Assembly (NCBI GenBank): GCA_022825235.1
Contig: JAJDYI010000086.1
Location: 1-64,000, forward strand
Direction: 5' to 3'
Length of the DNA: 64,000 nt
DNA from: Alphaproteobacteria bacterium
Lineage (GTDB): Bacteria; Pseudomonadota; Alphaproteobacteria; TMED109
The translations under genes and the position numbers were made by a program. The notes beneath the pieces were generated by a model, which was not told the origin of the DNA, ran no database searches, and was given only the letters and a program-made list of their open reading frames with translations. Numbering within the stretch: the first letter of the stretch is position 1; the number at the start of each line of letters is the position of its first letter. This document shows, piece by piece, positions 43,666 through 44,762 of the stretch.

Positions 43666-44421
43666 ATGCCCCAAGACGCCCCAACTGCAGCAATGCTCGT
43701 GATCGGTAACGAGATTCTCTCCGGTCGCACGCAGGACAAGAACGTCGCGCACGTCGCGAAACGGATGTCGAACCTCGGCGTTCGGCTCATGGAGGTGCGG
43801 GTGGTGCCGGACGTGCGGGAGCGGATCGTCACGGCAGTTCAGGAACTGTCCGCGGCCTGGGACTATCTCGTCACGACCGGCGGCATCGGGCCTACGCACG
43901 ACGACATCACGACGGAATGCGTGGCGGACGCGATGGGTGTCGAGGTAGAGCGGAATGCCGAAGCGCACCGCCGCCTCCGCGCGCATTACGCGGGCACGGA
44001 GATCGAGCTCAACGAGGCCAGGCTCCGGATGGCGAACATCCCCGTGGGGGCCACCCTCATCGACAATCCGGTGTCCGCCGCGCCTGGCTTCCGGCTTGGA
44101 AACGTCTTCGTGCTCGCCGGCGTCCCGGCCATCATGCAGGCCATGCTGGCGGTCCTGGAACCGCAGCTGGTCCGCGGTCCGCCGCTCCGTTCGCACACCT
44201 TCGTGGTGCACCGCCCGGAGGGCGCGGTCGCGGAGCCCCTGGCCAGCGTTGCGACCGAGTTCGCCGACGTTGATATCGGTTCCTACCCCTTCTATCGCCC
44301 CCCGGACATCGGGACCAGCCTCGTGCTGCGCACCGTCGACCCCGAGCGGCTTGCGCTGTGTGCCGACGCGGTGCGCCGGTTCCTGACCGAACTGGGAGCG
44401 CCCTTCCGCGAGGAAGCTTGA
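43666..44421 (+). CDS. CinA N-domain / molybdopterin-binding-like protein
   Basis: The 251-aa protein has the MoaB/MogA-like fold of the CinA N-domain: AMLVIGNEILSGRTQDKN, DYLVTTGGIGPTHDDITTE and then ELNEARLRMANIPVGATLID. NPVSAAPGFRLGNVFVLAGVP completes the substrate-binding loop. It lacks the C-terminal nicotinamide-nucleotide amidase domain of full CinA, as is common for the short form in proteobacteria. The likely role is in nucleotide or pyrophosphate metabolism. Start MPQDAPTAAMLV follows a GAGCG-type ribosome binding site. It ends 28 bp before tRNA-Leu. Confidence 0.9.
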   Translation: MPQDAPTAAMLVIGNEILSGRTQDKNVAHVAKRMSNLGVRLMEVRVVPDVRERIVTAVQELSAAWDYLVTTGGIGPTHDDITTECVADAMGVEVERNAEAHRRLRAHYAGTEIELNEARLRMANIPVGATLIDNPVSAAPGFRLGNVFVLAGVPAIMQAMLAVLEPQLVRGPPLRSHTFVVHRPEGAVAEPLASVATEFADVDIGSYPFYRPPDIGTSLVLRTVDPERLALCADAVRRFLTELGAPFREEA

Positions 44422-44449: not shown

Positions 44450-44762
44450 GCGGGCGTGGCGGAATTGGCAGACGCGACGGACTTGCGGGACGTTGAGTGC
44501 CTGCCGGGAAACCGGCAGTGCAGAACCGCTCAAATTCGGGGAAGGCTGACCGGCGGTGCCGATGCTGATCCCGAGCCAAGCCTGCATCCCTGCAGGAAGG
44601 TGTAGAGACTAGACGGGCGGCGCCTGGGGCCGGCTCTGCGGTGACGGCGAAGGGATAGTCCAGACCACGAACGTGCCTTGGGCGCGGCGGCGAAAGCCGA
44701 AGTGGTACGAAAATCCGTTTCTCCGAAGGAGAGTGAGGGTTCGAGTCCCTCCGTCCGCACCA
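44450..44762 (+). tRNA. tRNA-Leu (UAA) interrupted by a group I intron
   Basis: The 5' exon (44,450-44,484) begins GCGGGCGTGGCGGAATTGG and ends CGGACTT. The 3' exon (44,710-44,762) begins AAAATCCGT and ends CCGTCCGCACCA. Joined, the anticodon arm is ACGGA-CTTAAAA-TCCGT, giving anticodon UAA. A long variable arm (TTCTCCGAAGGAGAG) confirms a class II Leu tRNA, and the acceptor GCGGGCG/CGTCCGC pairs with one G-U. The terminal CCA is encoded. The gene is split between U34 and A35. Confidence 0.92.
44485..44709 (+). ncRNA. Group I intron in tRNA-Leu(UAA), 225 nt
   Basis: The intervening sequence has group I landmarks. The 5' exon end ACTT can pair with an internal guide GAGT, giving the U-G pair at the splice site. 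Core-like segments include CTCAAATTCGGGGAA, GATCCCGAGCCAAG, GTAGAGACTAGACGGGC and GATAGTCCAGACC. The last base before AAAATCC is G (omega G). It carries no open reading frame. Insertion site and core words closely resemble the cyanobacterial and plastid tRNA-Leu(UAA) introns. Confidence 0.88.

Follow-up and report, generated by a model that had tools for sequence, protein, structure and literature searches.

A small group I intron interrupts the tRNA-Leu(UAA) gene of an alphaproteobacterium

The window analysed here is a stretch of 64,000 nucleotides from an alphaproteobacterial genome, a 3.85-Mb MAG that is 96.3% complete. It carries a tRNA-Leu(UAA) gene whose sequence runs GCGGGCG...GGACUU, then through an intron of 225 nt, and then AAAAUCCG...GUCCGCACCA. 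The anticodon loop reads C-U-U/A-A-A-A, the slash marking the junction, which places the intron between U34 and A35 of the anticodon. The gene, its parts and its upstream neighbour are as follows.

43666 to 44421, + strand: CinA-like gene (MoCF_biosynth and FLAD1_M), just upstream of the tRNA; it marks the orthologous locus with or without the intron.
44450 to 44762, + strand: tRNA-Leu(UAA) gene, split by the intron, CCA encoded (from the sequence, and ARAGORN on the joined exons).
44450 to 44484, + strand: 5' exon, ending at U34, with the acceptor, the D arm and the anticodon stem ACGGA (sequence, ARAGORN).
44485 to 44709, + strand: group I intron, 225 nt, with no endonuclease ORF (sequence, Rfam match, covariation).
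44710 to 44762, + strand: 3' exon with encoded CCA (sequence, ARAGORN).

When the 225 nt are taken out, ARAGORN folds the joined exons into a complete tRNA-Leu(taa) of 88 bases; from the unspliced gene it returns no tRNA, either alone or in a scan of the whole window. Folding the spliced tRNA by minimum energy yielded no cloverleaf, and ARAGORN was used in its place. Running ARAGORN with introns allowed gave many genes wrong anticodons, and we replaced it with a junction search. Both the identity of the gene and the position of its intron are thus as the sequence-only reading had described them.

The other leucine tRNAs in the genome have the anticodons CAA, UAG, GAG and CAG, and no second UAA isoacceptor was found in the assembly, whose incompleteness leaves room for an unseen intact tRNA-Leu(UAA). 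Because no other UAA isoacceptor was found, the reading of UUA probably needs splicing of this intron. Demand for the tRNA is low, though probably not nil, since among the 11,805 codons of 28 window ORFs picked by GC3 UUA occurs only once. So slight a use of UUA means that loss of the gene might be tolerated, and the locus could be a decayed tRNA pseudogene with a dead intron. This we regard as extremely unlikely, given that the joined exons form a complete cloverleaf, that the intron core is kept in five genus mates and that the assembly offers no substitute tRNA. A truly decayed copy also looks quite different: one other genome (G036) holds an intact tRNA-Leu(UAA) intron together with a second copy (L078) that lacks a complete tRNA and is apparently decayed.

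The secondary structure of the intron, P2 to P9, was drawn manually from the window's sequence and then scored on 47 related introns, with the following elements.

44493 to 44494, + strand: UU able to pair with the first AA of the 3' exon, P10 (from the sequence).
44495 to 44498, + strand: P1 guide GAGU, pairing with exon ACUU, with G44495 as the partner in the splice-site U.G pair (sequence; the guide covaries with the insertion site across tRNAs).
44499 to 44521, + strand: P2 hairpin with a GAAA loop at 44508-44511 (covariation, helix 1).
44526 to 44531, + strand: 5' strand of P3, partner 44615-44620 (helix 2, 99.3% paired).
44536 to 44574, + strand: P4 (44536-44540 with 44570-44574) around P5 (helices 3-5; P5 extension weakly supported).
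44576 to 44600, + strand: P6 and P6a (helices 6-7).
44607 to 44611, + strand: 5' strand of P7, partner 44656-44660, the guanosine-binding helix, pseudoknotted with P3 (helix 8, 100% paired, double changes).
44615 to 44620, + strand: 3' strand of P3 (covariation).
44622 to 44648, + strand: P8 (helices 9-10).
44656 to 44660, + strand: 3' strand of P7 (covariation).
44664 to 44706, + strand: P9 domain of two hairpins, the second with a GAAA loop at 44692-44695 (helices 11-14).
44709, + strand: terminal G of the intron (invariant in 47 of 47 aligned introns).

The Rfam model Intron_gpI (RF00028) matches positions 44524-44621 with 26.0 bits (E 6.2e-4 in a 2.5-kb search), which falls under the gathering score of 50 for this general model and, taken alone, is only suggestive. 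The covariation in the drawn structure points the same way. Across the 47 introns 89.5% of cells are paired, a share that drops to 72.8% in shuffled controls and to 31-45% if one side is shifted, and both sides have changed in 48 of the 59 pairs, with 431 doubly changed cells observed against 142 expected. P3 is paired in 99.3% and P7 in 100% of cells, and P7 shows double changes such as those in Methylibium, where C-G becomes G-C and U-A becomes C-G. The weak spots of the drawing are the P5 extension, which is 55% paired, and part of P9a, which is poorly supported. The guide also covaries with the exon, reading GAG against CUU in Leu, GGG against CCU in Arg and GCC against GGU in Thr. Over 126 introns the mean contiguous P1 pairing is 3.62 bp with the intron's own exon and 1.86 bp with exons of other sites, a count that let the guide shift by up to 3 bases and so carries a mild bias.

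The intron therefore has the P3-P8 core with the P3/P7 pseudoknot, the U.G pair at the splice site (the U before the intron with G44495) and the terminal G (G44709) of a group I intron. This bears out the earlier identification, which had also pointed to the U-G pair and the final G; of the two things that could have undone it, lack of a match to a group I model and a cyanobacterial contig, neither was found, and the host is indeed proteobacterial. The marks of subgroup IC3 are all present: the intron is small and sits in the anticodon loop, its P5 and P6 are short, and P2 and P9 each carry a GAAA loop. In IC3 tRNA introns the two GAAA loops make tertiary contacts with P8 and P5. The same tRNA, the same junction and the GAG guide place the intron in the tRNA-Leu(UAA) class, and its 225 nt hold no frame for an endonuclease of the kind that a homing intron would encode.

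The intron lies at the same locus in five of six genus mates, at 92-97% identity, each time behind the same CinA-like gene; the assembly of the sixth (G003) contains no tRNA-Leu(UAA). Introns of this type occur in 7 of 28 genomes of the family, all seven in the window's genus, and none was found in the other genera of the family. In sister genera the tRNA-Leu(UAA) gene is uninterrupted at the corresponding locus, and it adjoins the CinA-like gene in four cases (L282, L284, L285, L286). In other families the same neighbour accompanies both intronless genes (L019, L020, L024) and intron-bearing ones (L202, L247, L252, L254). Because the CinA-like gene flanks genes of both kinds across families, the tRNA locus is apparently old and vertically inherited in the class, while the intron comes and goes.

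In order to address where the intron came from, we compared it with its relatives by identity and by phylogeny. Identity is 96% with the intron of G006; for other alphaproteobacterial Leu introns the figure is 78%, for the best acidobacterial Leu intron 80%, and for the closest of ten cyanobacterial introns 55%. In the tree 31 cyanobacterial Leu introns form one clade (support 100/100) with the window intron outside it, and the window intron falls within a set of 47 that are mostly alphaproteobacterial and acidobacterial (95/82). The sequence-only reading had left a choice between horizontal transfer and an independent lineage of an old intron. A recent transfer from cyanobacteria now appears unlikely, because identity is 55% compared with 78-80% and because the cyanobacterial introns form a clade of their own; a separate, old, non-cyanobacterial lineage is favoured by these sequence comparisons. 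Either old descent or old transfers may lie behind this lineage.

Recent transfer from a cyanobacterium, or from a plastid, would account for the shared tRNA and insertion position, and AU tests on a short alignment of about 220 columns do not reject trees in which the window intron is made sister to the cyanobacterial clade (p 0.10 and 0.28). Besides the identities and the separate clade, the details of the sequence run against it: P4 of the window intron has G-C where the aligned cyanobacterial rows have A-U, and its P9 pairing, ACCAC/GUGGU, is non-cyanobacterial. Taken together, we consider such a donor very unlikely indeed.

A further group I intron of this family lies in the genome's tRNA-Thr(GGU) gene, after U36 (L061:271-573, - strand, contig C12). 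The Thr(GGU) intron is present in all genus mates (L062-L067), and similar ones occur in other alphaproteobacterial families (G150, G202, G297 and probably G114); we found no report of tRNA-Thr(GGU) as a group I intron host in the literature searched. The two introns of this genome are 69% identical. Their co-occurrence and common family would fit a copying event within the genome, in either direction, by reverse splicing, and AU tests on the same roughly 220 columns, a short alignment, do not reject a forced sister relation between them (p 0.30 and 0.23). However, in the tree the Thr introns join their counterparts in tRNA-Thr(GGU) from other alphaproteobacterial families (97/97) while the Leu intron sits among other introns, and the guides differ, GCC in Thr and GAG in Leu, which makes copying very improbable.

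The sequence-only reading had also held that group I introns in tRNA-Leu(UAA) are rare outside cyanobacteria, and this did not survive the genome searches. A genome-wide search with RF00028 reported nothing, not even the window intron, and this insensitive model was replaced for genome counts by R1, a core model of the intron family; R1 was trained with the window sequence included, so its score of 133 bits for the window intron is not independent. In counts that pool all host RNAs and lose some introns to fast filters, R1 introns were found in 50 of 385 alphaproteobacterial genomes, 41 of 398 genomes drawn from the host's phylum, 10 of 199 Acidobacteria and 64 of 194 genomes of the cyanobacterial phylum. 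Of the 50 alphaproteobacterial genomes, no fewer than 18 have the intron in tRNA-Leu(UAA), three of them in the window's genus and one (G105) suspect. Further hosts are tRNA-Arg(CCU), Lys, Thr(GGU), Thr(CGU) and Leu(CAA), and R1 hits in other members of the host's phylum include introns in tRNAs with a CAU anticodon. Named genomes scanned with a pattern yielded 110 DNA stretches, 88 of them with a full-length (>150 nt) tRNA-Leu(UAA) intron, spanning Cyanobacteria, Acidobacteria, Alpha- and Gammaproteobacteria, Binatota and Clostridia, and a Chloroflexota MAG likewise has one of this type. One published account names cyanobacteria, together with a small number of alpha- and betaproteobacteria, as bearers of group I introns in tRNAs (PMC4033280). 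The supposed rarity mirrors that literature and not the genomes, and introns of this kind are far commoner outside cyanobacteria than was first assumed.

Among known systems, the cyanobacterial and plastid tRNA-Leu(UAA) intron shares with the window intron the tRNA, the U34/A35 site, the helices, the GAG guide and the terminal G, and the cyanobacterial introns differ from it in sequence at P4, at the P7 flank and at P9. Vepritskiy et al. reportedly described in 2002 a tRNA-Leu(UAA) intron in a deep-subsurface gammaproteobacterium, which would share the tRNA and a proteobacterial host, though a host of another class. The alphaproteobacterial tRNA-Arg(CCU) introns of Agrobacterium and Bartonella (BbgpI; PMC7717549) have the same core and are neighbours of the window intron in some trees, but they sit in another tRNA, after U36, with the guide GGG. 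Self-splicing has been demonstrated for BbgpI, and the related alphaproteobacterial intron in tRNA-Arg(CCU) splices in vivo as well as in vitro (PMC7717549). The tRNA-Ile(CAU) group I intron of Azoarcus, also found in Acidovorax and Burkholderia (PMC8450103), is likewise a small tRNA intron, assigned to the same type by class, in another tRNA and at another site.

All in all, the locus very probably holds a working small IC3-like group I intron in what is apparently the sole tRNA-Leu(UAA) of the genome, belonging to an old proteobacterial and acidobacterial line and probably inherited vertically at present. After transcription the intron would fold as drawn, a folding upheld by the covariation. 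By the chemistry of its family, it would then bind guanosine at P7, the guanosine would attack and cut after U34 of the P1 U.G pair, and a cut behind the terminal G would join U34 to A35. The mature tRNA would be aminoacylated and would read UUA and partly UUG. The ancestor of the genus would already have carried the intron, at a locus that has otherwise been passed on vertically. Since the intron has no endonuclease of its own, its inheritance today is probably vertical.

Several other introns met in the searches deserve mention. In a Chloroflexota MAG (L161:7181-7963) the tRNA-Leu(UAA) intron carries an HNH-like ORF of 155 aa in its P6 region; judged by its match to HNH_3 (E 1.7e-4, under the curated cut-off), it is possibly a homing endonuclease in a tRNA-Leu intron. 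Introns in tRNA-Leu(CAA) lie after U33 and have the guide GGU and not GAG (L243 in G081, L226 in G294, L238 in G199); two of these three are 355 and 431 nt long. In tRNA-Lys(UUU) the intron follows position 34 in G083 and G038 (L027, L215) and position 35 in other Lys introns, and the insertion point has apparently shifted inside the anticodon. The cyanobacterial-like tRNA-Leu(UAA) intron with a core of 28% GC in G105 (L239), a nominally alphaproteobacterial assembly, is probably contamination or plastid DNA.

The case is evenly balanced for a broader view in which the cyanobacterial and plastid Leu intron is one branch of a wider bacterial family that occupies this one site in six phyla or more, switches between tRNAs (Leu, Arg, Lys, Thr and those with a CAU anticodon) by change of guide and has, in at least one lineage, an HNH-like ORF that could help it spread. 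There is a practical gap as well, in that standard tRNA finders miss such intron-split genes, and a required tRNA therefore appears absent from the genome. The window intron is ordinary for its kind, and its potential interest to specialists lies in the wide distribution of these introns and in the second host tRNA. The textbook tRNA-Leu intron of cyanobacteria and plastids is not special to cyanobacteria, a point of relevance to the long debate over whether such introns are ancient or have spread sideways.
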